Origin: Bacteroidaceae bacterium | GTDB taxonomy: Bacteria; Bacteroidota; Bacteroidia; Bacteroidales; Bacteroidaceae | Assembly (NCBI GenBank): GCA_017381015.1 | Contig: JAFOCV010000054.1 | Coordinates: forward strand, 1-32,670 | Length of the DNA: 32,670 nt | Direction of reading: 5' to 3' | Shown here: piece by piece, positions 14,039-32,568 of the stretch | Layout: the number at the start of each line of letters is the position of its first letter | How positions within the stretch are numbered: position 1 is the stretch's first letter | The notes under the pieces: model-generated | What the model was told of the DNA's origin: nothing | The model's database searches: none | What the model saw: the letters and a program-made list of their open reading frames with translations, nothing else | Made by a program: the position numbers and the translations under genes

Positions 14039-14087
14039 AGACTTATCCGTTAATCTCCTGCAAGAGGAGGGGGATATTAGCTGGGGA

Positions 14088-19104: not shown

Positions 19105-19116
19105 CGTTTCAGAATA

Positions 19117-19200
19117 TATAGATGCTATAGGTGCTATAGATGTTATAGATGCTATAGAAATTAAAGAAGATATAGAAGATATAGATAATCGCTAATCGCT
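19117..19200. repeat. 9-bp TATAG array followed by two 7-bp units
   Basis: TATAG starts at 19117, 19126, 19135, 19144, 19153, 19171 and 19180, with TAAAG at 19162, so eight units step by exactly 9 bases. Two heptamers, AATCGCT, follow at 19187-19200. The same heptamer, as GATTAGC on the other strand, builds the array at 24328. The array fills the gap between the hisIE stop and the ftsE start. Confidence 0.85.
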
Positions 19201-19204
19201 CGTC

Positions 19205-19849
19205 TTAGTGTTTCTTCCAATTGGGGTTGTGACGCTCCATCAGTTCCTGAGCCATCTGCTCTATGCGCATACCCTTGCTGGTGAGCAGAACAATCAGGTG
19301 GTAAAGCATATCCGAACCTTCGTATACCATGCGCTCGTTTGTACCGTTGACAGCCTCGATGACTAGTTCCAAAGCCTCTTCGCCCACCTTCTGAGCCATG
19401 CGGTTGAGTCCATCCTTGAACAGAGATGTGGTGTAAGAACCCTCTGGCATCTGGCGATGACGCTCCTCGATGAAGTTTTGGAGCTCGCTCAGGAAGAGCA
19501 AGGGATTGTTTTCACCAGCAGTAGTGGGAGTGCAGGGATATTCATTCTTCTCTCCCCAGCAGGTATCGGTACCAGTGTGGCACACTGGGCCAACGGGGTG
19601 AACGCGTATGAGCAGTGTATCATTATCGCAATCGTTCTTGATGTCTACTACGTTGAGGAAGTTGCCACTGGTTTCGCCCTTTGTCCAGATGCTTTGGCGA
19701 GAGCGACTCCAGAAGGTAACCTTACCAGTCTTCAAGGTAATGTCGTAAGCCTCCTGGTTCATGTATCCAAGCATAAGCACCTGACGTGTGTCGGCATCCT
19801 GTATGATGGCAGGAATTAATCCTTGCATTTTTTCAAAGTTAATTTCCAT
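19205..19849 (-). CDS. hisIE: Bifunctional phosphoribosyl-AMP cyclohydrolase / phosphoribosyl-ATP pyrophosphatase
   Basis: HisIE carries out steps 2 and 3 of histidine synthesis. The N-terminal cyclohydrolase domain shows LMLGYMNQEAY, TFWSRSRQSIWTKGETSGN and the zinc-site cysteines in HPVGPVCHTGTDTCWG. The C-terminal MazG-like pyrophosphatase domain shows FIEERHRQMPEGSYTTSLF and KVGEEALELVIEA (the ExxE of metal binding). The full bifunctional length (214 aa) is present. The ATG at 19849 (MEINFEKMQG) is chosen over one at 19873, which adds MISHNTIT, not a conserved start. It follows hisF after 62 bases that hold a hexamer array. Confidence 0.95.
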   Translation of the reverse strand: MEINFEKMQGLIPAIIQDADTRQVLMLGYMNQEAYDITLKTGKVTFWSRSRQSIWTKGETSGNFLNVVDIKNDCDNDTLLIRVHPVGPVCHTGTDTCWGEKNEYPCTPTTAGENNPLLFLSELQNFIEERHRQMPEGSYTTSLFKDGLNRMAQKVGEEALELVIEAVNGTNERMVYEGSDMLYHLIVLLTSKGMRIEQMAQELMERHNPNWKKH

Positions 19850-19892
19850 AGTAATTGTATTGTGTGATATCACAAAATTTTGTGAATGTTTT

Positions 19893-19910
19893 GTAAGCGT
19901 AATTGTAAGT
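19893..19910. repeat. 6-bp GTAAnn array between hisF and hisIE
   Basis: Three hexamers read GTAAGC-GTAATT-GTAAGT. With its TTTT prefix the stretch 19889-19909 is identical, base for base, to 23682-23702. Confidence 0.75.
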
Positions 19911-19911
19911 G

Positions 19912-20667
19912 TTATAATCTTACGGGTATATTTTCTTCTCTGAGGTATTGTTTTAATTCGGGGATAGCAATTTCTCCAAAGTGGAATACGCTAGCCGCCA
20001 GGGCAGCATCAGCATGTCCTAGGGTGAAGGCATCGCGGAAATGGCTCATCTCGCCAGCACCACCGCTGGCAATGATGGGTATGGAGAGACGGTTGGCTAG
20101 TTCTGCCAAGGCTTCATTGGCAAAGCCTGTCTTGACGCCATCATGATCCATCGAGGTGAAGAGAATCTCGCCTGCACCACGTTCCTGTACTTCGTGAGCC
20201 CAATCCATGAGTCGCAGTTCCTGACGCTGGCGTCCGCCTTTGGTATAGCAGTGCCAACCATCAGCATCGTTGCGAGCATCAATGGCGCATACTATTACCT
20301 GCGAACCAAAGTGCTGTGCTATCTCGTCGATGAGGCTGGGGTGGTAGATAGCAGCCGAGTTGATACTCACCTTGTCGGCACCAGCATTGAGCAAGCGTTC
20401 CACGTCGCGAATCTCTTGTATGCCACCACCAACGGTAAATGGTATGTTGATTTCTGCCGCCACACGACTGACGATGTTAGTGAAGGTTTTGCGTCCTTCA
20501 TAGCTGGCAGTGATGTCCAGGAAACACAGTTCGTCAGCACCATTGTCACTGTAAGCCTTGCCCAGTTCCACTGGATCACCAGCAGTGCGCAGATTGACAA
20601 AGTTGGTACCCTTCACCGTCATACCATCCTTTACATCCAGACAGGGTATTATTCTTTTTGCTAACAT
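19912..20667 (-). CDS. hisF: Imidazole glycerol phosphate synthase, cyclase subunit
   Basis: HisF takes ammonia from HisH and closes the imidazole ring, giving imidazole glycerol phosphate and AICAR. The 251-aa TIM barrel shows the catalytic aspartates in [11 protein letters not shown] (Asp11) and VCAIDARND (about Asp130), and the phosphate-binding turns [13 protein letters not shown] and [14 protein letters not shown]. The length matches the family. Its first 7 bases overlap the end of hisA, so translation is likely coupled. Confidence 0.96.
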
Positions 20668-21371
20668 AATTTGCTAATGTCTATTTTGCCTTCGTAATAA
20701 GCCTTGCCAAAGACTACGGCAGGTATTCCGCTCTCGTTCAGGTGAAGGATGTCTTCGTTGCACGACACGCCACCTGATGCTATCAGATGCAGATGTGGAT
20801 AGTGCTTCATTACCTCCTGGTACATCTCTGTGGCTGGTCCGCTGAGGGTGCCATCCTTGCTTATCTCGGTGCAAAGCACGTTGGTGACTCCAGCCTCCAC
20901 GTACTTGCCCAAGAAGCTGAGCAATTCTTCCGTAGAGTCTTCCTTCCATCCGTTGATGCTCACCATGCCATCACGCACATCGGCGCCAAGGATGATTCTT
21001 TCGCTACCGTATTTCTTGAGCCAGGCGAGAAACATTTCGGGGTGAGTCACAGCCACACTACCGATGGTTACCATGTGTGCACTGGCGCTGAAGGCTTTCT
21101 CTATGTCTTCGTCAGTCTTGATACCTCCACCAAAGTCTACCGTCAGATTGGTAGCTTCGGTAATGGCACGGAGCACTGCATCGTTTACTATGTGCTTGCT
21201 CTTGGCTCCGTCCAAGTCTACAATGTGCAGGCGTTTGAAACCCAGTTGTTCAAACTCCTTTGCCTGCAGCACAGGGTTTTCATTGTAGATGGTTTTCTGA
21301 TTGTAGTCGCCCTTGGTGAGGCGTACACATTTGCCATCAATCAGATCTATAGCGGGTATGAGTTCTATCAT
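20661..21371 (-). CDS. hisA: ProFAR isomerase (phosphoribosylformimino-AICAR-P isomerase)
   Basis: HisA opens the ribose ring of ProFAR by an Amadori rearrangement, the step before HisHF. The 236-aa TIM barrel begins [24 protein letters not shown] with the catalytic Asp in PAIDL. It has the second Asp region [16 protein letters not shown] and the phosphate turns [13 protein letters not shown] and [13 protein letters not shown]. HisA is separated from its paralogue HisF by the [11 protein letters not shown] word and [10 protein letters not shown]. It follows hisH after 60 bases and overlaps hisF by 7. Confidence 0.95.
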
Positions 21372-21431
21372 AATATCTTTTTCTGAGGTGTCTCCAGAGA
21401 GGGGAGTGGAGTACAGGCTCGTGAGGTTGGT

Positions 21432-22025
21432 TTATAGATTGAGAAAGTTTTTCAGTATTCTTTCTCCCACGCTACCGCTCTTTTCGGGGTGAAACTGTGT
21501 GGCGTAGAAGTTGTCCTTGTGCAGAGCAGCAGAGTAGGGCAGGATATAGTCGCATGTGGCTATGGTGAAATCCTCGTGAAAGGGTACGTAGAAGCTATGC
21601 ACATTGTAGATGTATTCGTGCTCGTTGATACCCTGGAAGAGAGGGGTGGAAAGATTGTAGATGCTGTTCCATCCCATCTGTGGAACCTTGTCTTCGTGTA
21701 CCTTGGGAGAGAATCTTTTCACCTCCAGAGGGAAGATGCCCAGGCAATCGGTGTTGCCTTCTTCGCTGTGCTGGCACATCAGTTGCTGTCCTATGCAGAT
21801 GCCAAGAACGGGTTGGCGCAAGTCCTTGATGACTTTGTCCAGGGCATGCTCCTTGATATAAGCCATAGCATTGCTGGCTTCGCCCTGTCCGGGAAAGAGG
21901 ACTCTGTCTGCCTTAGCCAGAAGTTCTGCATCGTCGGTGAGAATTGGTTCTATGCCCAATCTCTTCAGTGCGTGAACCACCGAGTATATATTTCCTGCGT
22001 TGTATTTTACTATTGCAACGTCCAT
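21432..22025 (-). CDS. hisH: Imidazole glycerol phosphate synthase, glutamine amidotransferase subunit
   Basis: HisH hydrolyses glutamine and passes ammonia to HisF. The 197-aa class I amidotransferase has the oxyanion region FPGQGEA, nucleophile Cys77 in LGICIGQQLM, and the His179/Glu181 pair in TQFHPEKSG, so the triad is complete. It is the first of four his genes here (hisH-hisA-hisF-hisIE, the usual end of a his operon). hisG, hisD, hisC and hisB are not in the window. The tandem-ATPase ABC gene ends 44 bases upstream, and no consensus promoter is visible in that gap. Confidence 0.96.
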   Translation of the reverse strand: MDVAIVKYNAGNIYSVVHALKRLGIEPILTDDAELLAKADRVLFPGQGEASNAMAYIKEHALDKVIKDLRQPVLGICIGQQLMCQHSEEGNTDCLGIFPLEVKRFSPKVHEDKVPQMGWNSIYNLSTPLFQGINEHEYIYNVHSFYVPFHEDFTIATCDYILPYSAALHKDNFYATQFHPEKSGSVGERILKNFLNL

Positions 22026-22069
22026 ATTGCGTATTTCTTTGTGTCTAAGTACTGAGTTTTGACTTGTGT

Positions 22070-23569
22070 TTATGAATTCTTCTTGAGAGTAAGACTATGA
22101 GTGATACAGTTGGGAAGTTCCTCTTTGTAATGCGTAACCATAATCAGAGTCTTGTGTTCTCTCTGGCAGAAGGCATCTATTACCTCGCGCACTCGTTGTC
22201 TGTTGTTCAAGTCCAAACCGTGTAGAGGTTCGTCCAGGATGAGCAGTTCCGGATCTTTTACAAAGGCTCTGGCCAGGAGGCATAGGCGTTGTTCGCCACT
22301 GGAGAGCTTGAGGAAAGTCTTGTCCTGCAGATGTTCTATGCCAAAGACAGTCATCCATTGACGGCAGATATCGCGCTGCTCGGGGCGAGGACGGCAATAG
22401 AGTCCTACGCTATCGGACAAACCGCTTGCTACGATGTCTATGGCAGGTAAGTCGCGCAGATAGGCACGGTGCATCTCGGGAGAGACGTATCCGATGTGTT
22501 TCTTGATCTGCCAGATGCTTTCGCCTGTGCCTCTTCTGTGCCCAAAGAGTTCTATGTTGCAGGCATAGCTCTGAGGATTGTCGGCACATACCAGCGACAG
22601 CAAAGTACTCTTTCCGGCACCATTTTCTCCCTGCAGAGCCCAGCGTTCACCTTCACACACTTTCCAAGTGAGTTCGTTCAGTATGGTACGATTGCCGTAC
22701 TTGATACACACGTCGTGCAGGTGCAGAATCTCTCCTCCCTTCTGGGGATAGAAAGGTATGCTGGAGATATCCTTGGCAGGCAGTTGTTCTATCCATTGAG
22801 CAAGATGCTCGGGGAGAGCAGTAGAGGGTTTTGAGATGGTTTCCATGAATTCAACTCTCGTTTGTTTTGCCTTCAACTCCAGTCCTTCCACGGGGAGAAC
22901 GTGAGTGATAAATTCAGGAATGTCATCATACTTGGACAGCACCAGAATGATGGTGAGATGTGTTTCCTTGGTCAGAGTGCTCAATAGTTCTTTCAAGGCA
23001 TCTCTGGTAGGAGCATCAAGTCCGATGAATGGATTGTCCATGATGAGCACACGAGGTTCGGTGAGCAGAGTGCGTGTCAGTTGGAATTTGCGCAGCTCGC
23101 CACTGGAGAGAGAGATGATATATTTGTCCAGCACACCCTCCAGATTGAACATTCTGTATAGTTCAGAGCGAAGTCCTGGTCTGTGCTCCTCTATCTTTTC
23201 CAGGAGAGTGCCAGCCGTGGGAGTATTCTCGTCTATGTCGTGCTGATTCCAGCGCTGCTGATAATAATATGTTCCGTCCTGATCTCCATAAGAGTCTCGG
23301 AAGGAGATGAAGCGGAGTTGTTCGCTGATGAGGCGTTTCTGTGTGGGAGTACCAGCCTCTGCACCTGTGGTGTCAAAGTCGTAGTAGACACTATTCTGCA
23401 GCAGGGGGTAGTGTCCAGTGATAATCTCTACCAAACGGCTTTTGCCAGCAGCATTGTCGCCACAGATGGCTATCTGCTCTCCGGGCATTATCTCCATGTT
23501 GACGGGAGAAGCCATACGCCAGTCGGGGTGGCGTGTAATGCCGTTGGTTATTTTGATTATTGGGTTCAT
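22070..23569 (-). CDS. Tandem-ATPase ABC protein, ModF-like, with degenerate first ATPase
   Basis: This 499-aa soluble protein has two ABC ATPase domains and no membrane segment, like E. coli ModF. Domain 1 has Walker A GDNAAGKS (37-44) and signature LSSGE (154-158), but its Walker B reads LIMDN (175-179), with Asn where the catalytic Glu should be, and its H-loop position is Ser (LVLSKYDD, 212). Domain 2 is canonical: GENGAGKS (314-321), LSSGE (422-426), LILDE with Glu447, and His480 in MVTHYKEE. One active site is therefore expected to be weak or dead. ModF's role is poorly known; a molybdate link is not supported by neighbours. A short 7-bp repeat lies directly before its ATG. Confidence 0.8.
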   Translation of the reverse strand: MNPIIKITNGITRHPDWRMASPVNMEIMPGEQIAICGDNAAGKSRLVEIITGHYPLLQNSVYYDFDTTGAEAGTPTQKRLISEQLRFISFRDSYGDQDGTYYYQQRWNQHDIDENTPTAGTLLEKIEEHRPGLRSELYRMFNLEGVLDKYIISLSSGELRKFQLTRTLLTEPRVLIMDNPFIGLDAPTRDALKELLSTLTKETHLTIILVLSKYDDIPEFITHVLPVEGLELKAKQTRVEFMETISKPSTALPEHLAQWIEQLPAKDISSIPFYPQKGGEILHLHDVCIKYGNRTILNELTWKVCEGERWALQGENGAGKSTLLSLVCADNPQSYACNIELFGHRRGTGESIWQIKKHIGYVSPEMHRAYLRDLPAIDIVASGLSDSVGLYCRPRPEQRDICRQWMTVFGIEHLQDKTFLKLSSGEQRLCLLARAFVKDPELLILDEPLHGLDLNNRQRVREVIDAFCQREHKTLIMVTHYKEELPNCITHSLTLKKNS

Positions 23570-23572
23570 TTA

Positions 23573-23600
23573 AAACTGAAATGTGAAAACTGAAAACGGA
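23573..23600. repeat. 7-bp array upstream of the tandem-ATPase gene
   Basis: Four heptamers run AAACTGA, AATGTGA, AAACTGA, AAACGGA without interruption, starting 4 bases upstream of the gene's ATG. On the - strand the unit is TCAGTTT. Confidence 0.6.
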
Positions 23601-23685
23601 AATCTCCGAGAGTAATTAAACTTGTTTAAATTGCGGATTCTACCTCACTACCTTCTACCTCACCAACCCTTACTCCATCTCTTTT

Positions 23686-23703
23686 GTAAGCGTAATTGTA
23701 AGC
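23686..23703. repeat. 6-bp GTAAnn array between ruvC and the tandem-ATPase gene
   Basis: Three hexamers read GTAAGC-GTAATT-GTAAGC, an almost exact copy of 19893-19910. An imperfect double TTCTACCTCAC word lies just before it (23638-23665). Confidence 0.75.
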
Positions 23704-23729
23704 GTTTCTTGTATGTTTTTGTGTTATGT

Positions 23730-24314
23730 TCAGGAGTCTGGACTCTTTTTGCCGATGGGCGATGAGGATTGCCTGTCTTTGTTCTTATTGACGAAGTCCT
23801 TCCACGAAGAGTATTTCTTGTCCGTTTCGGGGCGTCCCATCTGCAGGAAGTGACAATAGGCAGCAGCCAGTGCGTCAGTAGCATCCAGGAAGCGTCCCAC
23901 TTCTTCTTTGTCCAGGTGGAGCATTCTTCTGAGCATGTCAGCCACTTGTTCTTTGGATGCAGCACCATTGCCTGTGATGGCCATCTTGATTTTCAGTGGA
24001 GCGTACTCGGTGATGGGAACCTGTCTTTGTATCGCAGCCGCCATGGCTACTCCCTGTGCTCTGCCCAGTTTGAGCATGGATTGCACGTTTTTGCCAAAGA
24101 AGGGAGCTTCGATAGCCATCTCATCGGGCAGGTATGAATCTATGATGCCAGTGATACGCTCGAAGATGTGTCCCAGTTTCAGGTAATGGTCAGAGAATTT
24201 TCTCAGGTCTATTACGCCCAGGGCCAGGGCCTCTGCCTTCTTGCCTGAAACGCGTATCACACCATATCCCATCATATTGGTGCCGGGGTCTATGCCGAGT
24301 ATTATCTTTTCCAC
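23730..24314 (-). CDS. ruvC: Crossover junction endodeoxyribonuclease RuvC
   Basis: RuvC cuts Holliday junctions after RuvAB branch migration. The 194-aa protein has the RNase H-like fold with four acidic residues: Asp9 in ILGIDPGT, Glu69 in [11 protein letters not shown], and Asp144 and Asp147 in [14 protein letters not shown]. The words [11 protein letters not shown] and [21 protein letters not shown] are typical of the family. The extra C-terminal 30 residues ([13 protein letters not shown] and on) are Lys/Ser-rich and usual for Bacteroidetes. No ruvA or ruvB is adjacent. It is probably co-transcribed with the DUF1573 gene upstream, across a 139-base repeat-filled gap. Confidence 0.95.
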
Positions 24315-24327
24315 GAGAGTAGGGGGC

Positions 24328-24450
24328 GATTTGCGATTAGCGATGAGAGATTAGCGATGAGAGATTAGCGATTAGCGATTAGCGATGATTCTGAGTATTC
24401 TGAGTATTCTGAGTAATCAGAGTATTCTGAATGATCTGAATGATTTTTGG
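24328..24450. repeat. Composite array: 7-bp GATTAGC/GATGAGA units then 9-bp ATTCTGAGT units
   Basis: From 24328 nine heptamers run without gap: GATTTGC, then GATTAGC and GATGAGA alternating, then three GATTAGC, then GATGATT. From 24388 seven nonamers follow: ATTCTGAGT three times, AATCAGAGT, ATTCTGAAT, GATCTGAAT and a decayed last one. The arrays fill nearly the whole gap between the DUF1573 stop and the ruvC start. Confidence 0.9.
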
Positions 24451-24453
24451 TTA

Positions 24454-24891
24454 TTACTCGGTCATTTCTCCTTCGATGATCAGGCGCACGATTTTTGTTT
24501 TCGAGTTGGAGCGAATGGTAATGGTCTTGGAGAAGCGTCCGGGCATGAGTCCCTTGCCATTGTATGTTACGTTGATGCTGTCTCTTTCTCCTGGCTTGAT
24601 GGGGTCCTTGGTGTATGCGGGCACGGTGCATCCACACGAGGCGAAAGCCTGATTGATGATGAGGGGAGCAGTACCTACGTTGGTAAAGCGGAAGGTGCAC
24701 TTGCGGATAGGGTCTGACTGGGGGAAGATGCCAAAGTTGTAGCGCAGGGTGTCAAACTTGATTTCCGCATAATTCTCGGCATTGCTGCTACCTGTGGGGC
24801 GCACGTTGCTATTTACTGTCTTCTTTGATTGAGCATTCATGCATAGGGCTGTCATCAAAAGCATGCATGCAAGGAATAAAATCTTTCTCAT
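24454..24891 (-). CDS. Exported DUF1573 protein
   Basis: The 145-aa protein has a signal peptide (MRKILFLACMLLMTALCMNAQ) and one immunoglobulin-like DUF1573 domain. It shows the family words YNFGIFPQSDPIRKCTFRFTN, FASCGCTVP with its Cys-Gly-Cys, and KPGERDSINVTYN. The family is widespread in Bacteroidetes and has no established function; it is probably periplasmic or surface-attached. The ATG at 24891 is chosen because it opens the signal peptide. A TTG at 24927 lies inside the promoter -7 element and cannot be the start if that promoter is used. It may head the long - strand run that begins with ruvC. Confidence 0.9.
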   Translation of the reverse strand: MRKILFLACMLLMTALCMNAQSKKTVNSNVRPTGSSNAENYAEIKFDTLRYNFGIFPQSDPIRKCTFRFTNVGTAPLIINQAFASCGCTVPAYTKDPIKPGERDSINVTYNGKGLMPGRFSKTITIRSNSKTKIVRLIIEGEMTE

Positions 24892-24924
24892 AAGTGTAGT
24901 TTCTATATTATAAAATTTCGCGCA

Positions 24925-24932
24925 CAAAGATA
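24925..24932 (-). promoter_or_regulatory. -7 element upstream of the DUF1573 gene
   Basis: On the - strand TATCTTTG lies 33 bases before the ATG. A TTTG is found only 28 bases upstream, too far for the usual spacing, so the -33 element is uncertain. Confidence 0.45.
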
Positions 24933-25126: not shown

Positions 25127-27058
25127 TTACAGACTTTCACACTCCTTCAGCCAACTGAGCGAAACGGCATCGCTGGGCATTTGCCAATCGCCTCGGGGAG
25201 ACAATCCACAGGTACCCACCTTGGGTCCGTCGGGCAAGCAAGAGCGCTTGAACTGTTGGTTGAAGAAACGTCTGTAACATACAGACAACCATTTCTTTAT
25301 CGTTTCGTCATCGTAGTCGCTTTGTGCAAAGGCATGTCGTGCCAGCATGTATATCTTGCCAGGGCGGAAGCCATGGCGCAGTATGTAGTAGAGGAAGAAG
25401 TCATGCAGTTCGTAGGGGCCTACCAGGTCTTCTGTCTTCTGCTTGATTTCGCCATTCTCGTGGGCGGGTATCAGCTCGGGCGAGATGGGGGTGTCTATGA
25501 TGTCCTCCAGAGTGCTTCTCACCACGGTACTCTTCTGTACGCTGGCATACCATGCTACCACCAGTCTTACTACTGTCTTGGGCACAGAGCCATTGACGCT
25601 GTACATGGACATGTGATCGCCGTTGTATGTGGCCCAACCAAGTGCCAGTTCGGACAGGTCGCCAGTACCCACTACCATGCCATTCACCTGATTGGCTATG
25701 TCCATGAGGATTTGGGTGCGTTCGCGAGCCTGAGAGTTCTCGTACGTGATGTCGTGCTTGAGGGGATTGTGTTCTATGTCCTTGAAGTGCTGCAGGCAGG
25801 CATCCTTGATGCTTACTTCTCGGAGTGTGATGCCCAGATGCTTCATCAGCGTGAGGGCGTTCTGGTAGGTGCGGTCTGTGGTGCCAAAACCAGGCATGGT
25901 GACTCCCACAATACCCTTGCGGTCAAGCTTGAGTAGATCGAATGTGCCCACGCATACCAATAGAGCCAGAGTGCTGTCCAATCCACCGCTGATGCCCAGT
26001 ACAACTGTCTTACACCCAGTGTGTTTCAGTCGTTTGGCTAAACCAAGAGTTTGAATGCTGAATATCTCTTCCGTCTCGCGTGCCAGTTGTGCTTTGTCCT
26101 CTGAATAGAAGGGATGCTGGCTGATGTGGCGAGAGAGTTCCAGGTCGCGACGAGCCATCATGTCCGTATTGGTGATGGTGAGTTTTTCCTTGTTGATTTC
26201 CTTGGTAGAATCGCTGAAAATCTTGTTGGAGCGACGATCACCTCGGATCTTCTCTACGTCTATTTCGCTAAGTATCAAACCAGGTTCCATGCCATAGGGC
26301 TTTTTCTCGCAGAGTATGTTGCCGTTCTCGCATATCAGGGTTTTGCCTCCATAAACCAGGTCTGTAGAGCTCTCGCCAAAACCTGCGCTGGCATACACGT
26401 ATCCACCTATGCAGGCGGCGCTCTGTGCACATACCAGATTGGTGATATAGTCGTTCTTGCCCACGAAGCTACTATCCGCAGCAGGGCACAGTATTATCTC
26501 TGCACCCATCAGTGAGAGAGTGCTGGAGGGGGGGATAGGAGCCCACATGTCGTGTCCTATCTCGATGGCAAAGCTGCATGAGGGAGTATTGAAGATGTGG
26601 TATCGGCTTATTTCCACCTGGTCGCCGCAGAGCCATACCTTGCTGTTTTCTGCTTCGGTGATGGAGGTGAACCATCGCTTTTCGCTGCTGTCTCTGTGGT
26701 TGCTCAGGAAGCTCTTTGCCACGATGCCCTGTATTTTGCCTTTCTGCAATACCACGGCACAATTGAGCATATTGTGATTGCATACCACGGGCATACCCAC
26801 GATGAGTATCATGTCCATGGAGCGAGTAAAGTCCATTAGCTTCATCAGCGCTATCTCTGCCTCCTCCACCAGAGTCTGCTGGAAGAAGAGATCCTGACAG
26901 GTATAGCCAGTGAGGCTCAGTTCGGGGGTGACTAGAATTTCAACGTTCTGAGCCTGTGCTCTGAGGACCAGTTTTTCTATTTCCTCCACGTTGTGCTGAG
27001 TGTCTGCCACCTTTACCTCTGGTATGCCGGCGGCTACTCTTACGAATCCGTATTTCAT
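25127..27058 (-). CDS. nadE: NAD+ synthetase with glutaminase-type N-terminal domain lacking the nucleophile Cys
   Basis: NadE amidates nicotinate adenine dinucleotide to NAD+, the last step of NAD synthesis. The 643-aa protein has an N-terminal nitrilase-fold domain (1-280) and a C-terminal synthetase domain with the P-loop SGGLDS (357-362) and the closing region GTCGLSPRGDWQMPSDA. In the N-terminal domain Glu46 (VTPELSLTGYTC) and Lys115 are in place. The third member, normally Cys in a word like EICEDLW, is Gly168 in IEIGHDMWAP (codon GGA at 26555-26557). Glutamine hydrolysis is thus doubtful and the enzyme may depend on free ammonia. The ATG at 27058 sits 33 bases below a consensus promoter; a TTG at 27112 lies within that promoter. 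Confidence 0.92.
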   Translation of the reverse strand: MKYGFVRVAAGIPEVKVADTQHNVEEIEKLVLRAQAQNVEILVTPELSLTGYTCQDLFFQQTLVEEAEIALMKLMDFTRSMDMILIVGMPVVCNHNMLNCAVVLQKGKIQGIVAKSFLSNHRDSSEKRWFTSITEAENSKVWLCGDQVEISRYHIFNTPSCSFAIEIGHDMWAPIPPSSTLSLMGAEIILCPAADSSFVGKNDYITNLVCAQSAACIGGYVYASAGFGESSTDLVYGGKTLICENGNILCEKKPYGMEPGLILSEIDVEKIRGDRRSNKIFSDSTKEINKEKLTITNTDMMARRDLELSRHISQHPFYSEDKAQLARETEEIFSIQTLGLAKRLKHTGCKTVVLGISGGLDSTLALLVCVGTFDLLKLDRKGIVGVTMPGFGTTDRTYQNALTLMKHLGITLREVSIKDACLQHFKDIEHNPLKHDITYENSQARERTQILMDIANQVNGMVVGTGDLSELALGWATYNGDHMSMYSVNGSVPKTVVRLVVAWYASVQKSTVVRSTLEDIIDTPISPELIPAHENGEIKQKTEDLVGPYELHDFFLYYILRHGFRPGKIYMLARHAFAQSDYDDETIKKWLSVCYRRFFNQQFKRSCLPDGPKVGTCGLSPRGDWQMPSDAVSLSWLKECESL

Positions 27059-27090
27059 ACTTTTCGTTGTTTTTATTCTAATTTCTGGGG

Positions 27091-27121
27091 CAAAGGTATT
27101 GATTTTTTTCAAGAAAACAAA
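27091..27121 (-). promoter_or_regulatory. Consensus promoter of nadE
   Basis: On the - strand TTTG (27118-27121), exactly 19 bases, then TACCTTTG (27091-27098) match the Bacteroidetes promoter at every position. The transcript would start near 27085, leaving a leader of about 27 bases. Confidence 0.82.
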
Positions 27122-27136
27122 GTGAAAGGGAAGATT

Positions 27137-27174
27137 ATCAGTGAGCAGGAGTCAATAAGGCGCTGCTCACTGAT
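27137..27174 (-). terminator. 12-bp perfect stem-loop after the DUF6261-like gene
   Basis: ATCAGTGAGCAG (27137-27148) pairs perfectly with CTGCTCACTGAT (27163-27174) around a 14-base loop. It lies between the end of the DUF6261-like gene and the nadE promoter, so a terminator is likely. The T run is better on the + strand, which has no gene there. The arms share the word TGCTCACTG with the heptamer array nearby. Confidence 0.5.
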
Positions 27175-27188
27175 TTTTCTGAGTGATG

Positions 27189-27230
27189 CTCATATCTCAT
27201 TGTTCACAGCTCTCAGCTCACTGCTCACTG
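27189..27230. repeat. 7-bp CTCACTG array
   Basis: Six heptamers in register: CTCATAT, CTCATTG, TTCACAG, CTCTCAG, CTCACTG, CTCACTG. The array lies 19 bases after the stop codon of the DUF6261-like gene. Confidence 0.75.
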
Positions 27231-27248
27231 CACGGTGGTGTGTGTGGC

Positions 27249-28076
27249 TTACTGCTCTGCTGAGGTGTCGTTGCTGTCTGGAGTAGTGGGTGATTCCTGG
27301 TTTTCAGTGTTGTCTGTATTGTCTGAGTTTTCTGGGCTGTCAGGATTCTCGTTTTTCTCTGTTTTGGCAGTACGCTGGTTGTAGCTGGCATTTGCTTCGC
27401 TCAGGATGGCATTGATGGTAAGGATGTAGGCATCTATCTCTTCTGAGGGAGTGAGTACGTTGTGAGCAAAAGCCACGGTGGTGATGTACTTGTAGAGGGA
27501 GTCCATTTCCTGGCGCAGAGTGGCGCTGTCCACTGCTTTGTTGGCGGTGCGGGCCTGTGTGCGCTGTTCCAGTATGACCTTGTACTGAGCGTTCTTCAGC
27601 GTGAGTGTTTCGATGTAGTTGCCCAGTCCCAGAGCGGTGATGTATGTCTGCATGGATTCCTGATTCAGGTCTATGAGCATGCCCTCTATGGTGGCAGTTT
27701 TCTGTGGTGCTGGCTGGTTGTAGAATCCCACGTAGGGTTTCAATACGGTGTACAGTGCGGTGGCTGCTGCTGCTTTTTCGGCAAGGGGCAGGCTCAGCGA
27801 ATTGCGCACGCTGGTGATGATGTACTGACCCAGGGTGCTGCGCTCTACGTCCAGGGCCTGAAGCTTGATGGTTTCTGGACAGGCTGTGGTACGTGCCACG
27901 TTGTTCTGCAATTGTGTGTGCAGTTGGCGAAGGCGGTCGACGTCGGCTTCTTCATAGTGCAGAGTATCTGCTCCTAGGGCAATGGTTTGTGAGATGAAGC
28001 GGTCCATGATGGTGACGTACTCGGGTGTGTTGAATTTGTGGAAACTGAGTTCCTGGAAGTAATTGATGTTTTTCAT
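27249..28076 (-). CDS. DUF6261-like protein with a repeat-derived acidic tail
   Basis: The 275-aa protein resembles Bacteroidales proteins now called DUF6261; the start KNINYFQELSFHKFNTPEYVTIMDRF fits, but I assign the family from memory only. It has no signal peptide and is predicted largely helical (about 1-230), with heptad-like Leu/Ile. Function is unknown. The last 45 residues are low complexity, rich in Asn, Asp, Glu, Ser and Thr (ENSDNTDNTENQESP). At DNA level this tail is a 9-bp periodic array (cores at 27304-27344), so its length may vary between strains in steps of three residues. The gene stands alone, with no clear promoter seen in the 280-base gap upstream. Confidence 0.65.
   Translation of the reverse strand: MKNINYFQELSFHKFNTPEYVTIMDRFISQTIALGADTLHYEEADVDRLRQLHTQLQNNVARTTACPETIKLQALDVERSTLGQYIITSVRNSLSLPLAEKAAAATALYTVLKPYVGFYNQPAPQKTATIEGMLIDLNQESMQTYITALGLGNYIETLTLKNAQYKVILEQRTQARTANKAVDSATLRQEMDSLYKYITTVAFAHNVLTPSEEIDAYILTINAILSEANASYNQRTAKTEKNENPDSPENSDNTDNTENQESPTTPDSNDTSAEQ
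27304..27348. repeat. 9-bp array inside the 3' end of the DUF6261-like gene
   Basis: On the + strand TCAGT, TCTGT, TCTGA, TCTGG and TCAGG begin at 27304, 27313, 27322, 27331 and 27340, an exact 9-base step. The step keeps the reading frame and produces triplets such as NSD, NTD, NTE. Confidence 0.7.
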
Positions 28077-28133
28077 AAGCTGTAGGTGATAATAAAATGG
28101 TTTTGGAAAAATAATAAGGTCTCTGATAAGGTC

Positions 28134-28210
28134 TCTAGGGTCTCTAGAGTATCTAGTATTTCTAGTATTTCTAGATTTTCTAGAATCTCTAGAACTTCTA
28201 GGACCTCTAG
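28134..28210. repeat. 9-bp TCTAG-N4 array, nine copies
   Basis: TCTAG starts at 28134, 28143, 28152, 28161, 28170, 28179, 28188, 28197 and 28206: nine perfect cores with an exact 9-base step. The four bases between cores vary freely (for example AGTA, TATT, AATC, GACC). CTAG is rare in many bacterial genomes, which makes this density remarkable. Confidence 0.92.
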
Positions 28211-28238
28211 GCCCCCCAAAAGGGTGGCGGCGGTTTTT

Positions 28239-28262
28239 GTAATTGTAATTGTAATCGTAGTC
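28239..28262. repeat. 6-bp GTAATT array
   Basis: Hexamers GTAATT, GTAATT, GTAATC, GTAGTC follow a T run, as in the copies at 19893 and 23686. The last two units are also the left arm of a 14-bp inverted repeat. Confidence 0.75.
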
Positions 28263-28350
28263 TGTGGATGAGGGGGGGGCTTGTGAGTGGTGGTGGTCAG
28301 TTGCTTTTGAGGTATGTTGGTGCTTTTCCCCTGTGGCAGACTACGATTAC
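28251..28350. repeat. 14-bp perfect inverted repeat with 72-base centre
   Basis: GTAATCGTAGTCTG at 28251-28264 is the exact reverse complement of CAGACTACGATTAC at 28337-28350. The centre contains a run of eight G (28272-28279). The right arm ends 6 bases from the stop codon of the 686-aa gene. Confidence 0.8.
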
Positions 28351-28356
28351 GCAGGA

Positions 28357-30417
28357 TTAGTGATTTATGTTGGTTTTGTGGTATTTCTTAGTTTCTTTGT
28401 CGTAAGTGACGAGCTTGCGGTGAATCCACTGGTTGAGCATATTGCGCACGGCTCTGGATGTGGTGGGCTTGTTCATGATGCGTCGTATGCTGACGGCATC
28501 ATTGTATGTGAACGTATTTTGAAGCATGGGCAATAGCATAGTGGGGCGATGACCGCCTTGTTCGACGACGTTGAAGTCCTTCTCGATGAGCTGTCCGAAG
28601 TAGTAGCTCTTGCACCACATGTCATATGATACGCTCCACGAGCAGAAGTCTTCTATCTCCTGGCTCCATCCACCGTGCATGATGCTGAGTATGTATCCTC
28701 TCCAGCATCCCATTTGCAGCGAGCGCCACAGAAAGGGCAGCATGTGCTTGGCATCCATCATCTTGAGATAGTTGGTCTGGCGGATTTTTTCGTCATTAGC
28801 CCATTTGATGGCTTCGGGATAGTGTATTATGCCCTTGGCCCGGAGCAGTGGGGTGGTGTAGACCTTCAGCGTGTTGCGATATGATTCGCCGTACTGGCCA
28901 TAGGTGGGTGTGTCTTCTCCCCAGTCGTCCTCGTCCAGTATGATGGTGCTGAGACACAGTCGGCTGAGAGTACCATTGTTGGTATCCCCCTTGAGCACAC
29001 GTCTTGCCGTATTGGGAGTGGTGGAGAAGTTGAAGCTCCATCTCAGTTGAGCCACTTCGCTGACCGAAGCAGCCGAAACACGTTCCTGACCGTATTGCTC
29101 ACAGTCGTATGCCGAGCGTATGATCTCCGAAGCACCCTTCAGGCGCAGTATCTTCTCTATCTCTTCGCCATAGGTATAGAGCGAGTGCGGGTGGGCTCTC
29201 TTGCAGAGTTTTACCAGGGCAGGATTGGTCATATCCGCCTGTACTATTCTCAGTGGAGAGGTGGGCGCAGGTGGACGTTCGGCATTGGCAGGAAGCACGG
29301 CGCATTTTGCACGCCACTGGTCGTCTGCGGCACGATTCTCCTCGTCCTCCTTCTCTATGTCATATAGTATCTCCTTGAGGGGCATACGTATGGCAGACTT
29401 GCCACTGGCCTGCGATGCTATGCAGATGTTCATGAAGCAGGGCTCAAAGTCACGATTGTCTATGTGTTTGAACTGTACTTCGCTCAGTAGTATTCTCAGA
29501 GCCGAGAAGCAGGCTATTGCCACTGCGGGTCTGGTATTTTCCGGCGAAGCGCTGATGATGTGCTCTATGGCAGGAGGCAGACGTTCGGGCATGGGAGGTA
29601 CCTGTATTTCCTCGTCCTGTAGGCACTGATCGTCCATCAGCTCGTCATCGTCTGCATCGCTGTATGCAGGCTGGGGTGGGGTGCTTTGTTTGATGGGAAC
29701 GGCTTTTGCAACCAGCTTTATAGCCTTCTGATCGTGTAATTCCGCTTCCTCTTCAGAGTGAGTGCCCTCCTGGGGCAAGGATTCGGCTTTTTCGCCAGGA
29801 GAATCATAGTCCTGGAGCGGGAAGAGCATATCCGGATTGTAATAAAGTACATCATCCCTGTGGCACAACAGATACAGGCGCGAGAGATTCTTGCACTTGG
29901 TGTCTATGGGCAGATTCAATATGTTGTGCCATTTCTGTATTTCCTGTTCGATGGACAGTACTCCGGTGCGTTTCACCACCAGTCTCAGACCCTGAGAGGG
30001 AGTGAGGTATGCCATGGCCAGGAAGAGTGAGGGATCTCCCAGCTTGTTTTCTATGCAGCGCAGAGCATGCTGGTACATCTGCATGCCACAATTGGGCATA
30101 TCTATGTCTATGCCATAGAATGGCGAGGGTATAAAGCACTGGTCCTGACGGCGAGAGTGTTGTGGGTCCTGAGCCAACCATCTTTCGGCTAGCGGTGGAG
30201 AGTAGAGTCCGTTGAACAGTACGGCAGGCAGTTTCTTCTTTGCATCCTGCCTCTTTTCGCTACGGTACTGCTCTATCAGCTTGCTGGTGTGCTTGCTGTC
30301 CAGCAATTGGTCCATGATTTCCCGCGTGAGTACCTTCGGTTCAGTGTCAAACGAGTTGTTGACATAGGTAAGGGCTCCTTGCAGAGCCCCTACGCATTGA
30401 TTGTTAATAATTGTCAT
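28357..30417 (-). CDS. VirE_N (BT4734-like) primase-type domain fused to a DUF3987-like ATPase
   Basis: The 686-aa protein has an N-terminal VirE_N/BT4734-like domain (about 60-200), related to archaeo-eukaryotic primases. It shows FYGIDIDMPN (100-109, two acidic residues), SQGLRLVVKR (141-150) and RLYLLCHRDDVLYYN (180-194). An acidic linker follows (about 203-272). The C-terminal ATPase region (about 280-680) has a P-loop-like ASQASGKS (334-341). This pairing is common in Bacteroidales and in mobile-element replication modules, but no integrase, transposase or phage structural gene is nearby. A role in DNA replication or repair is inferred. It starts 8 bases after the 175-aa gene and shares its promoter. 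Confidence 0.72.
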   Translation of the reverse strand: MTIINNQCVGALQGALTYVNNSFDTEPKVLTREIMDQLLDSKHTSKLIEQYRSEKRQDAKKKLPAVLFNGLYSPPLAERWLAQDPQHSRRQDQCFIPSPFYGIDIDMPNCGMQMYQHALRCIENKLGDPSLFLAMAYLTPSQGLRLVVKRTGVLSIEQEIQKWHNILNLPIDTKCKNLSRLYLLCHRDDVLYYNPDMLFPLQDYDSPGEKAESLPQEGTHSEEEAELHDQKAIKLVAKAVPIKQSTPPQPAYSDADDDELMDDQCLQDEEIQVPPMPERLPPAIEHIISASPENTRPAVAIACFSALRILLSEVQFKHIDNRDFEPCFMNICIASQASGKSAIRMPLKEILYDIEKEDEENRAADDQWRAKCAVLPANAERPPAPTSPLRIVQADMTNPALVKLCKRAHPHSLYTYGEEIEKILRLKGASEIIRSAYDCEQYGQERVSAASVSEVAQLRWSFNFSTTPNTARRVLKGDTNNGTLSRLCLSTIILDEDDWGEDTPTYGQYGESYRNTLKVYTTPLLRAKGIIHYPEAIKWANDEKIRQTNYLKMMDAKHMLPFLWRSLQMGCWRGYILSIMHGGWSQEIEDFCSWSVSYDMWCKSYYFGQLIEKDFNVVEQGGHRPTMLLPMLQNTFTYNDAVSIRRIMNKPTTSRAVRNMLNQWIHRKLVTYDKETKKYHKTNINH

Positions 30418-30425
30418 AATTATAA

Positions 30426-30953
30426 TTATTTATTATCCTTAAGTTGCAGACCCTCCTGGGGGGCTTCTTCTTGCTGAGCAAGGAACTGCTCATCGTACTT
30501 ACGTTGCATTTCAAACCAGGCGTCAACGTACTCGCACCATGATGCGAACATAGCCTGGTCTGCTTCCTCCTTGGTTTGAGCCGTGAGGACGTCGTTGTTA
30601 AACATATATTTCCCGATTCTCCTAAGGAACTTTGCGAATGTAGACACACTCTCATAGTATTGTTTACGGTTAAGGTTCTTAGGTAACTTCATCTTACAGA
30701 TGAGGCTGTCCTGGAAGACCTGCACTCTAGACCTTCCAAGGTCTAGGTCCGCCCACGCACGGCGGTTTGGATTTTCTTCGCCTCCACCCAAGATGGCGAA
30801 GATGCTATTATTGTTCTCCTCTTGCTGAGGCTCTCCTACTTCTGCTTTAGCCTTCAAGAATTCCTCTAGAGCGTTATGTTCTGCTACTTCTGCGATGTTA
30901 ATCTCACGACCGTTTTTAACCAGGTCTTCAATTTTAATATAATTCTTGTTCAT
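30426..30953 (-). CDS. Unknown acidic protein, first gene of the VirE_N/DUF3987 unit
   Basis: I do not recognise this 175-aa protein. It is rich in Glu, Asn and Gln, with no signal peptide. Parts seen are MNKNYIKIEDLVKNGREI, an E/Q/N-rich stretch (about 39-50), a more ordered core (RAWADLDLGRSRVQVFQDSL and KQYYESVSTFAKFLRRIG) and a Gln/Glu tail. The start is ATG at 30953, preceded by an A-rich ribosome region and a 10-bp hairpin 16 bases upstream. Only 8 bases separate its stop from the 686-aa gene, so the two are surely one operon. It is probably a partner or regulator of that protein (inference). Confidence 0.7.
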   Translation of the reverse strand: MNKNYIKIEDLVKNGREINIAEVAEHNALEEFLKAKAEVGEPQQEENNNSIFAILGGGEENPNRRAWADLDLGRSRVQVFQDSLICKMKLPKNLNRKQYYESVSTFAKFLRRIGKYMFNNDVLTAQTKEEADQAMFASWCEYVDAWFEMQRKYDEQFLAQQEEAPQEGLQLKDNK

Positions 30954-30969
30954 AATTTTTATCTTTTAA

Positions 30970-30996
30970 GGTAAAGGTGTGCTGAGCACCTTTACC
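30970..30996 (-). promoter_or_regulatory. 10-bp hairpin just upstream of the 175-aa gene start
   Basis: Perfect arms of 10 bases enclose a 7-base loop. On the - strand the next 16 bases are A-rich, not T-rich, and lead straight to the ATG, so it is more likely a translation or RNA-stability element than a terminator. Confidence 0.6.
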
Positions 30997-31165
30997 GATT
31001 ATTAATTATTAATTATTGCTAGTTCCTTTCCCATGCAGCGAGCTACACTGCAATACTAGTTTAGGGTTTTTCGAAAATCAAGTAAATCGGGCAAAAATTT
31101 TTGTATGCTAGCAGAATCCCGAGCTCACTGTCCTTCCGATGTGCACGTCCCCTATATTTCTAATA

Positions 31166-31176
31166 TGTTAAAGAAC
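31166..31176 (-). promoter_or_regulatory. boxA-like antitermination word
   Basis: GTTCTTTAACA on the - strand, about 45-55 bases after the predicted transcript start, is close to boxA of rRNA leaders (TGCTCTTTAACA in E. coli), which binds NusB-NusE. No rRNA gene lies nearby. Confidence 0.5.
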
Positions 31177-31227
31177 TCTTTGCTGGCAGGAAGAAACCCT
31201 CAGCGGCTTGTTTCCCGTTTGCGAGTG

Positions 31228-31258
31228 CAAAGGTATAGCTTTTTATGAAAACTACAAA
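31228..31258 (-). promoter_or_regulatory. Consensus promoter of the VirE_N/DUF3987 operon
   Basis: On the - strand TTTG (31255-31258), exactly 19 bases, then TACCTTTG (31228-31235) match the Bacteroidetes promoter fully. It is the same combination as at nadE. Confidence 0.82.
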
Positions 31259-31291
31259 AGGATAAAGCATTAATTATCAAATAGATACGGA

Positions 31292-31396
31292 GTAAGATTT
31301 CCCGAAAGTTTACCTCTAAAAAAGGAGTGAAAAAGCGCAAAATCTTACCTCGGAAATTGCGGTAAGAATTTCCAAAAACTTACCTCCGCCAGACAG
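31292..31396. repeat. Three tandem 35-bp units upstream of the promoter
   Basis: Units start at 31292, 31327 and 31362. TTACCTC recurs at 31310, 31345 and 31380, an exact 35-base step. Units 1 and 3 match at 20 of their first 26 bases, beginning GTAAGA; unit 2 is more diverged. Unit 3 holds GGTAAG-N12-CTTACC, a dyad, and unit 1 a decayed form of it. They lie about 33-140 bases upstream of the -33 element at 31255-31258, as a set of regulator sites would. Confidence 0.75.
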
Positions 31397-31401
31397 GGCA
31401 C

Positions 31402-31430
31402 AAAAAAACTCCCCGCACAAGGGGGAGTTT
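31402..31430 (-). terminator. Intrinsic terminator of the 332-aa gene
   Basis: AAACTCCCC (31406-31414) pairs with GGGGAGTTT (31422-31430), 9 bp with a 7-base loop. On the - strand the stem runs into seven T. It lies about 45 bases after the stop codon. Confidence 0.85.
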
Positions 31431-31475
31431 ACTGGTGGGAAGATGTGGGTCAGCAGGTGGTCATTCTTCGTGAAT

Positions 31476-32474
31476 TTAACCGAGATAAAATTCCTTAGGG
31501 TCTACTTTCTTTATATAGCTCTTTATGTGTTTACGCAGGAAAGTGCGCCCTTCGCTGTAGAACCTCTCTCTGTTTTTCAATTGCTTCCCGGTCTTCTTGC
31601 CGGCCAGAAGGTCCACTTCCAGTATGTATACCATCCATGCTATCAGGTCGCGCGTGGTGAATTTGTTACATATAATCTCCAGCGGTTTGCCCTCTGGGAT
31701 GTATGCCTTAAGAAAGTGGTCCATCACGGCAGTAAAGTAGGCCACAATCTGAGTGTTGCATGGTTTCTTGTTTTCATATACACTTCCGATGGCAAACGCA
31801 GAAAATATACCGTGATCATGATTTCGATAATACTCTAACGCGAATCTTATTAAAGCTAGTGTTGGCTCGTTGTTTATTTTGAGTTTATTCTTCTCGTCTT
31901 TTGTTTGTATGGTCAAACCGCATTTTCCGTAGCTAAGAAAATTTATTAAGGAGTCGTATTCTTTCTCCACAGTCGTCTGCAGAATTCCATTTTTTCGGTA
32001 CAAGTAAGCCTGCCATTTTACAGCTAGGCACAAGTACCAAAACTTGCGCGGGTCTAGACCAAGCTCCTTTAGAAAGCCTTGTATGAACATATTTTCCGAA
32101 TATATGCTTGACCCAGTGTTGTCTATCTGATTGTCAAAGTAATATTTTTGAAAATAAAAAGGAACAGAAGATGGTTTGTAAATTCGATCTCTATCCAAAA
32201 GCATTTCTTCTGGGTCCTTTTTTAGTTTCTCTCGGAGGTCTTCATTTGTAGTATCATATAAAAGGAACATCGTCTCCTCCAACGGCCCACCTTTATATTT
32301 GTCCCAATCGCGTTTCATTCGGAGGTACGTGTCATATTTAGCTTTAAAGTATGGGTTTACAAACGGCCACAGCTCGTCAGCCAGCTTCACCAGATACTCT
32401 AGGCCATCGTCCTGTGTCAGATCCAGCTTGCCGTCCTTCTGCTCGCACAATTTCAGTTCTTCAATCTCCTTCAT
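31476..32474 (-). CDS. Unknown protein, AT-rich single-gene unit
   Basis: I do not recognise a family in this 332-aa protein. It has no signal peptide, membrane segment or obvious catalytic motif. It looks largely helical, rich in Lys, Glu, Tyr and Phe (FVNPYFKAKYDTYLRMKRDWDKYKG in parts, FLKELGLDPRKFWYLCLAVKW, LALIRFALEYYRNHDHG), and ends in a basic stretch, RTFLRKHIKSYIKKVDPKEFYLG. The DNA is clearly more AT-rich than the neighbouring genes, with A/T-ending codons, a hint of later acquisition. It has its own promoter (32506-32536) and terminator (31402-31430), so it is a one-gene unit. It could be a defence or accessory gene; nothing in the sequence proves this. Confidence 0.65.
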   Translation of the reverse strand: MKEIEELKLCEQKDGKLDLTQDDGLEYLVKLADELWPFVNPYFKAKYDTYLRMKRDWDKYKGGPLEETMFLLYDTTNEDLREKLKKDPEEMLLDRDRIYKPSSVPFYFQKYYFDNQIDNTGSSIYSENMFIQGFLKELGLDPRKFWYLCLAVKWQAYLYRKNGILQTTVEKEYDSLINFLSYGKCGLTIQTKDEKNKLKINNEPTLALIRFALEYYRNHDHGIFSAFAIGSVYENKKPCNTQIVAYFTAVMDHFLKAYIPEGKPLEIICNKFTTRDLIAWMVYILEVDLLAGKKTGKQLKNRERFYSEGRTFLRKHIKSYIKKVDPKEFYLG

Positions 32475-32505
32475 ATACTATTGATTTATTATATTTTCCC
32501 AAACA

Positions 32506-32536
32506 CAAAGATACTGATTTTTTCCTCTCGCTCCAA
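32506..32536 (-). promoter_or_regulatory. Promoter of the 332-aa gene
   Basis: On the - strand TTGG (32533-32536), 19 bases, then TATCTTTG (32506-32513). The -7 element is perfect and the -33 differs from TTTG by one base. The transcript would begin about 25 bases before the ATG at 32474. Confidence 0.7.
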
Positions 32537-32550
32537 GCGAATGCTCCAGT

Positions 32551-32568
32551 GATTACGCTTACGCTTAC
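32551..32568. repeat. 6-bp GATTAC/GCTTAC array
   Basis: GATTAC-GCTTAC-GCTTAC is the reverse complement of GTAAGC-GTAAGC-GTAATC, so this is a fourth hexamer array of the same kind as those at 19893, 23686 and 28239, in opposite orientation. It lies just upstream of the promoter of the 332-aa gene. The window ends in AT-rich TCTATA-type repeats (32636-32670) that may start another array. Confidence 0.7.

Follow-up and report, generated by a model that had tools for sequence, protein, structure and literature searches.

Degenerate tandem arrays of mixed unit length in the intergenic gaps of a Bacteroidaceae genome: candidate mosaic extragenic repeat elements

What are the short tandem arrays that lie between the genes of a Bacteroidaceae bacterium? 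The window analysed here is 32,670 nucleotides long (GCA_017381015.1, contig JAFOCV010000054.1, positions 1 to 32,670) and is contig 35 of a 2.45-Mb assembly that is 85% complete (the window genome, G000). Its initial annotation listed 13 arrays of period 6, 7 or 9. These are real: Tandem Repeats Finder (TRF), our own period-based detector and pattern search together confirm 12 of them, and the thirteenth, at 13948, is readable directly in the sequence. The arrays lie mainly in gaps, recur at many loci, use words that differ between clades and change in copy number by whole units, and blocks of them are present, absent or replaced while neighbouring genes keep ~95% identity. Our best reading likens their kind to bacterial interspersed mosaic elements (BIMEs) or to the degenerate heptamers of cyanobacteria, with a lineage and a layout that appear new. 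They would be slippage-driven, sequence-constrained mosaic extragenic repeat elements, a reading to which we give a probability of about 0.5, its proposed roles included.

The initial annotation named a comparison with shuffled sequence as a test that could refute it, and both lag scores and array counts in the gaps stand far above the shuffles. Genes were taken as open reading frames (ORFs) of at least 80 aa, picked by length and uncurated; the minimum was raised to 100 aa for the counts of gap type, hairpin pattern, clustering and strand sense and for the alignment of G103 with G119. Arrays were detected with TRF (score ≥30), our detector and pattern search. In a 278-kb sample that includes the window, gap self-match exceeded dinucleotide shuffles at lag 9 (z = 11.4), lag 7 (z = 6.9), lag 6 (z = 7.1) and lag 8 (z = 5.8), and lags 2, 3, 18 and 21 were likewise raised. 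Across 534 kb of the window genome, 80 arrays of period 2–12, 72 of them of period 6–11, were found in 60.3 kb of gaps, compared to 4.8 in Markov-shuffled gaps; the coding part, which is far larger, held 36. Five stretches of this sample (in C10, C25, C78, C126 and C149) had been chosen for matches to the word TCTAGANNN. A recount without these and without the window (35 stretches, 431 kb) found 55 gap arrays in 48.5 kb (47 of period 6–11) and 23 arrays in coding sequence; shuffled gaps yielded 4.4.

Three 50-kb stretches of E. coli K-12 contained no array in 14.0 kb of gaps, and ten genomes from other Bacteroidales families contained 10 arrays of period 6–11 in 32.8 kb. Three genomes of the same genus (G001, G090 and G120), whose stretches were chosen independently of arrays, had 38 in 18.5 kb, with a different vocabulary (e.g., AATTCNN, TTCAATN and GTTTAGAN). 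The window genome has five sister genomes, G004, G085, G088, G103 and G119; G004 showed no array in 3.8 kb. The stretches of G003 and G013, and most of those of G103, G119 and G085 apart from the syntenic ones, were picked by matches, so densities there are biased. Arrays are common yet not universal in the genus, and their vocabulary is local. The mixing of periods described by the initial annotation stands; its restriction to three does not, since periods 7, 8, 9, 10 and 11 occur in the genus, with genome-specific words.

The recurrence of core words elsewhere, also predicted, was confirmed genome-wide, and reversed controls were clean for TCTAGANNN, TCTGANTAN and GTAAKY. The word TCTGANTAN had 53 matches in the window genome, where its reversed control had none, and occurred in 28 of 101 genus genomes, with one control match overall. 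There were 15 matches per strand to TCTAGANNNTCTAGANNNTCTAGA in the window genome (reversed control, 0), and this word was present in 7 of 61 genomes, all within the 37 of the same genus. The pattern TATAGANNN was found in 21 of 101 genus genomes (control, 5 matches in three genomes), and GTAAKYGTAAKYGTAA, searched as GTAAKY, had 9 matches genome-wide, 4 of them in the window, and none in its reversed control. For GATTAGC the reversed control is void because it is a rotation of the same array; a 17-mer of this word occurred in 1 of 101 genomes. A four-unit TCTAGANNN pattern matched at least 116 stretches of the GTDB collection. Among the 116 matches listed, 100 bear Bacteroidetes- or Bacteroidales-type names, 10 are Victivallales or Lentisphaeria (Lentisphaerota), 3 Kiritimatiellae (Kiritimatiellota), 1 Proteobacteria and 2 unnamed bacteria, the named genomes among them being mostly Prevotella and other Bacteroidales, and we refer to the organism of the window as Prevotella-like. 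This word thus spans more than one phylum. Of the 13 Victivallales, Lentisphaeria and Kiritimatiellae loci, 11 were examined, and the array is coding by the ORF rule in three (L058, L079 and L087). Phage was considered as a general vehicle and rejected, as 4 stretches of the viral collection matched TCTAGANNN and 17 matched TCNGANTAN, which is too few. A single 126-kb IMG/VR contig carries TCNGANTAN in three stretches (L309, L312 and L315); it could be a phage or, if wrongly sorted, a contig of the host.

The arrays combine fixed and free positions. Of 100 arrays from five genomes, detected by period without regard to their words, 75 could afterwards be assigned to a word class and 25 could not. 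The class TCNGANTAN comprises 27 arrays and 193 units in four genomes (G000, G103, G119 and G085), with conservation of 0.99 at T1, 0.98 at C2, 0.99 at G4, 1.00 at A5, 0.88 at T7 and 0.93 at A8; columns 3, 6 and 9 are free, with three or four bases each. For TCTAGANNN (6 arrays, 35 units), columns 1–5 are conserved at 0.97–1.00 and A6 at 0.80, and the final three are free. Variation lies chiefly in columns 3 and 4 of GATTAGC (8 arrays), and chiefly in column 4, less in 5 and 6, of AAAACGG (14 arrays, three genomes). DNA common to G000 and its sisters G103, G119 and G085 is only ~70–79% identical. Conservation across these four genomes supports constraint on the fixed columns, which a propagation bias could mimic. 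Neighbouring units of TCNGANTAN are slightly more alike at their free columns (lag-1 similarity, 0.593 vs 0.533 permuted; z = 3.5), as expected from slippage; with the four other words examined, lag similarity stayed below z = 2 at every lag. Coding repeats were rejected as an explanation, as most arrays are in gaps and most consensus units contain a stop on some strand. For periods 7, 8, 10 and 11, this is the case in 89 of 104 units (79.9 expected), a modest excess, and 42 have stops on both strands (27.1 expected).

Units of different period also differ in symmetry and are arranged in a preferred order. Period-9 consensus units are dyad-symmetric compared to letter-permuted units (z = 2.7 in the window genome, 2.4 in the sisters and 1.7 in G003 and G013, word-sharing arrays being counted as independent). 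As RNA, period-9 arrays fold better than column-permuted versions (mean z = −1.27, median rank 0.07, n = 37), and no such advantage was found for period-7 arrays (n = 18). Heptamer words within 60 bp of period-9 or period-10 arrays point inward in 70 cases and outward in 7, and 23 of 26 rows are inward overall; upstream, 35 are forward and 4 reverse, while downstream 3 are forward and 35 reverse. The heptamer patterns were written post hoc from the arrays, with both orientations counted alike; the 26 rows represent 22 arrays, and some of those in G103 and G119 are orthologous, so not all are independent. Arrays of different period cluster in the window genome, with 17 pairs compared to a random mean of 5.1 and maximum of 16 in 300 trials. 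Period-8 arrays occur in inverted pairs (L203, 12482/12536; L018, 10208/10276; L015, 19728/19829), for example ATAACTGT ... ACAGTTAT, which could form stems. At L023 (15341-15466), a 19-bp minisatellite, CTCTGATAGTATAGACAGG, joins TCTGA and TATAGA words in one unit, with 6.7 copies, near a TCTAGANNN array.

Comparison between relatives shows that the arrays turn over. Four array-bearing gaps of the window (19105-19204, 19874-19911, 23570-23729 and 24315-24453) have their flanking genes in all five sisters, with the arrays absent. Elsewhere in the sister genomes, the window array sequences have numerous matches in G088, G103 and G119, several in G085 and, among the matches listed, none in G004. 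Gap DNA of the sisters is too diverged to place insertion points, and for the array-bearing gaps 13736-14087, 27113-27248, 28077-28356 and 30954-31475 no sister aligned on both flanks. G103 and G119 are closer. Across nine aligned pairs, coding sequence had an identity of 0.956 and gap DNA outside arrays 0.879; the value for arrays, 0.697, includes replaced blocks. Where flank identity was at least 0.8, 8 of 16 array indels were exact unit multiples (7, 7, 9, 9, 9, 18, 27 and 36 bp), and the remaining eight measured 1, 1, 2, 3, 10, 16, 33 and 69 bp; at flank identity of at least 0.9, 8 of 13 were exact multiples. Away from arrays, 12 of 17 gap indels with flanks at least 0.8 identical were 1 or 2 bp. 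In two array-bearing gaps the entire content differs between conserved flanks, and in one gap a ~105-bp block, with a hairpin like those of repetitive extragenic palindromes (REPs), is present in only one of the genomes at the same site. The copy-number comparison suggested by the initial annotation thus found whole-unit changes, and these, together with the swapped gap contents, support its proposal of a shared generating process. In the L265/L261 alignment (columns 1269-1482 and 1633-1929), gaps of one genome hold a G+C-rich repeat (ACCCTCCCCCAGCCCCTCC...) and the close relative has other content.

Within the window, TRF overlaps ten of the 13 listed arrays (19117, 19187, 23573, 24328, 24388, 27189, 27304, 28134, 28239 and 32551); the sites at 19117, 24326, 24388 and 28143 are strong (score ≥69) and the remaining six score 30–41. 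The array in the convergent gap at 13948..13979 consists of CTAG-centred words (CCTAGG/CCTAGA/TCTAGA/TCTAG), read directly and without a TRF report, with CTAG at 13948, 13958, 13967 and 13976, in steps of 10, 9 and 9. At 19117..19185 lies a period-9 array of CTATAGANN (TATAGATGC), a word present in 21 of 101 genus genomes, which was found by TRF (score 70) and our detector. It is abutted by period-7 TAATCGC at 19186..19200, the GATTAGC word on the − strand (TRF 30). A + strand period-7 array of AAAACTG/AAAACGG at 23572..23602 (TRF 41) falls below the cut of the word-class count. At 24326..24386, a + strand GATTAGC/GATGAGA heptamer array (TRF 87) points into the period-9 TCNGANTAN array at 24388..24444 (TRF 72), in the gap from a DUF1573 gene to ruvC; this gap is array-less in all five sisters. 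The + strand period-7 CTCACTG array at 27189..27231 (TRF and our detector) lies beside a 12-bp perfect inverted repeat, 27137-27174, that holds the same word. The period-9 TCTAGANNN array at 28127..28214 (TRF 69–76, also our detector) is followed by a + strand period-6 GTAANN array at 28237..28262 (TRF 39, pattern search). Two further + strand GTAANN arrays, at 19893..19910 and 23686..23703, are TRF-negative and were found by pattern search as exact GTAAKYGTAAKYGTAA matches, and a − strand period-6 GTAAGC array is at 32553..32568 (TRF 32, pattern search). A period-7 ATTATTA array at 30998..31017 (TRF 40) adds to the initial list. The claim that the arrays fill gaps holds for most of them and fails for the weak period-9 stretch at 27307..27334 (TRF 35), which is inside a DUF6261 ORF (27249-28076). 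The reported lack of arrays in the first 13.7 kb is weakly informative, gaps being few in that block. The pair GTAATCGTAGTCTG / CAGACTACGATTAC (28251-28264 / 28337-28350) is a perfect 14-bp inverted repeat that starts in the GTAANN array there, and a 41-bp period repeat of 2.1 copies at 2559-2644 is partly in a gap of the + strand block. Rfam searches at gathering score gave no structured-RNA match in the window, and a tRNA search of it found none.

The position of arrays relative to genes bears on what they might do. In the window genome, 3 arrays were found in 9.9 kb of divergent gaps and 49 in 35.4 kb of tandem and convergent gaps; for the sisters the figures were 1 in 6.4 kb and 51 in 25.6 kb. 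Without the picked stretches, the window genome had 2 in 7.4 kb of divergent gaps vs 31 in 27.1 kb of other gaps. Few array centres of tandem gaps fell in the one-fifth of the gap closest to the start of the downstream gene (window genome, 3 of 35; sisters, 2 of 35), yet the window arrays at 19117, 23572 and 24326 begin 12, 2 and 11 bp from the next start. Within tandem gaps, AAAACGG is in sense orientation in 13 of 15 cases and GATTAGC in 6 of 9. Because arrays largely keep out of promoter-only gaps in the window genome and the sisters, and by analogy to BIMEs, the likeliest role would be at gene ends, of a terminator-, insulator- or topology-like kind.

Taken together, we infer the following organization. 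Units of period 9, or at times 10, whose fixed letters are dyad-symmetric (TC-N-GA-N-TA-N, TCTAGA-NNN, CTATAG-NNN and CCTAGG-NNNN) would form the centre of an element, often flanked by polar heptamer arrays (GATTAGC and AAAACGG) aimed inward. The unit-step changes and the replacement of blocks suggest that units are gained and lost via replication slippage or unequal exchange, and that blocks may be re-seeded into other gaps through copying or recombination. Each dyad unit would be recognised as duplex DNA by a protein that dimerises or forms filaments, or would fold into a short hairpin; this would keep the fixed columns constant, and the free columns would drift. The shared binding protein postulated by the initial annotation remains putative; fixed columns and dyad symmetry are compatible with it. 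Protein recognition, hairpins and the gene-end role are all proposed from sequence patterns.

Slippage could also act alone, with arrays coming and going by slippage and chance copying, no host function, fixed columns that are simply what copying propagates, and gaps that tolerate the result. We regard this selfish or neutral account as possible, at odds well short of even. Unit-step indels and the similarity of adjacent units fit it, array positions are unconserved among sisters, and few arrays are found in coding DNA or, for the window genome and sisters, in divergent gaps; polymerase slippage has been offered for heptamer excess (PMC4692102). Against it count the fixing of the same columns over the 27 TCNGANTAN arrays of four genomes, with G000 so diverged from the other three and the free columns varying widely, the heptamer orientation rule and period-9 dyad symmetry. 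The arrays might instead work as transcripts that bind a putative RNA-binding protein or form hairpins that protect or end the transcript. The good RNA folding of period-9 arrays and the sense bias of AAAACGG would suit this, and Bacteroidota use RNA recognition motif (RRM) proteins (PMC12119571). However, the sense bias of GATTAGC is slight, period-9 words are strand-symmetric, no RRM_1 match was found in the 85% complete window assembly, and free columns lack complementarity across the fold-back axis, so we consider an RNA-level role improbable.

Movement by a transposase, with the arrays as the inner part or tails of an element resembling miniature inverted-repeat transposable elements (MITEs) or REPINs (REP doublets forming hairpins), appears very unlikely to us. 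A ~67-bp REP-like hairpin does occur among heptamers, the block present or absent at one site in two genomes carries it, and a single ORF resembling REP-associated tyrosine transposases (RAYTs), of the Y1_Tnp family, exists. This ORF is flanked, by eye, by other repeats rather than arrays, and hairpin copies counted by a loose pattern are few relative to arrays (3 vs 72 in the window-genome sample, 5 vs 25 in G103 and 4 vs 22 in G119). The repeat family flanking the ORF (G000:C55:25083-25427, L275) has ~40-bp units by eye. The hairpin itself, TGCGA.TAAGCGAGAGCA ... TGCCGAGCG.GAGCA, was seen in 14 distinct copies by the loose pattern, among them L022 at 184, L261 at 1897 and 9321, L266 at 3221, and copies in L050 and L052. 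Its inner stem varies, its outer stem seems to change on both sides jointly, and it is often near the clade's heptamers. Window positions 23600-23640 bear a degenerate likeness to it by eye, outside the loose pattern.

Several results weigh against constrained mosaic elements as we propose them. The symmetry scores treat word-sharing arrays as independent; period-10 units have a z of −0.2 (n = 5), their symmetry being only a by-eye reading of words. Period-7 and period-8 units have no dyad symmetry, so a single mechanism may not cover all words. The folding advantage of period-9 arrays weakens with DNA parameters (median rank 0.23). Complementarity of free columns across the fold-back axis was 0.248, as in permuted arrays (0.248), which argues against selection for long hairpins and indicates that the symmetry is per unit; long hairpins that pair free columns were not seen. 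Clustering of different periods is not significant in G103 and G119 (6 pairs vs 3.7, maximum 11), and divergent gaps are not clearly avoided in G001, G090 and G120 (4 arrays in 3.3 kb) or in G003 and G013 (3 in 2.1 kb). The array identity of 0.697 includes replaced blocks forced together by the aligner, the G103 and G119 stretches behind the indel counts were fetched or located via array matches, and changes of core between orthologous arrays occur (e.g., L268/L322).

A bolder extension, which we hold to be a long shot, is a clade-specific, fast-changing DNA code. In gaps at gene ends, proteins would read the nonamer centres, with their dyad symmetry, and the oriented heptamers beside them as sites at which to nucleate and spread, vocabulary and reader would co-evolve, slippage would keep the arrays long, and re-seeding would be modular. 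Prevotella-like Bacteroidales are abundant in gut and rumen, and the DNA between their genes has been little studied. Should the fixed columns be under selection, these gaps would offer a testable sequence code at gene ends; if not, the arrays document in nature how gaps are rewritten from strain to strain by slippage and copying, and are ready-made strain markers.

Among the papers listed in our literature searches, none describes such arrays in Prevotella. BIMEs and REPs are extragenic, avoid divergent gaps and have a conserved palindromic unit of ~20–40 bp. The units here, unlike those of BIMEs and REPINs, are 6–11 bp and are not REP palindromes, and no RAYT flanked by arrays was found, the one Y1_Tnp ORF of the 85% complete assembly being flanked by other repeats. 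Cyanobacterial heptamer repeats are known as short tandemly repeated repetitive (STRR) sequences. GATTAGC and AAAACGG resemble them in being tandem heptamers of non-coding DNA in which some positions are fixed and others free, whereas unit length is not confined to 7, as periods of 6, 8, 9, 10 and 11 were also found. Whole-unit copy-number change between close genomes is shared with simple sequence repeats. REPINs are likewise extragenic, with an inverted layout (PMC3116915). The BrickBuilt MITE/minisatellite of Porphyromonas gingivalis is also an intergenic tandem array within an element of a Bacteroidales genome, but has a 23-nt unit and a defined leader and tail (PMC4596501). The GGGAATC and GGGGA(T/C)T heptamers of Xanthomonas and Nostoc are intergenic and differ in length and sequence between close species, yet are G-quadruplex-type single words, and the words here are not G-runs (PMC4692102). 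TAACTGA forms short intergenic direct repeats in Beggiatoaceae, cyanobacteria and five Bacteroidetes, and between two Cyanothece strains its indels are mostly in 7-nt increments (PMC4679880); the period-8 word TTAACTGA is close to it in letters. TAACTGA is, however, a single invariant word that in Beggiatoaceae mostly lies immediately before start codons (PMC4679880); the arrays here use many degenerate words and are spread over the gap, with three in the window beginning within 12 bp of a start. The likeness to cyanobacterial heptamers drawn by the initial annotation proved apt for the P6b stem-loop of the Nostoc tRNA-Leu(UAA) intron, with its degenerate heptamers of Class I (TDNGATT) and Class II (NNTGAGT), in which some positions are likewise fixed and others free, length changes by repeats of 7 and 14 nt and word class switches between lineages (PMC4476775). 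In the text consulted, none of the five systems is described as combining several unit lengths, fixed and free columns and inward orientation. Compared to the Nostoc heptamers, which sit in an intron stem, the arrays here are found genome-wide in gaps, with periods of 6–11, nonamer centres and oriented heptamer flanks.

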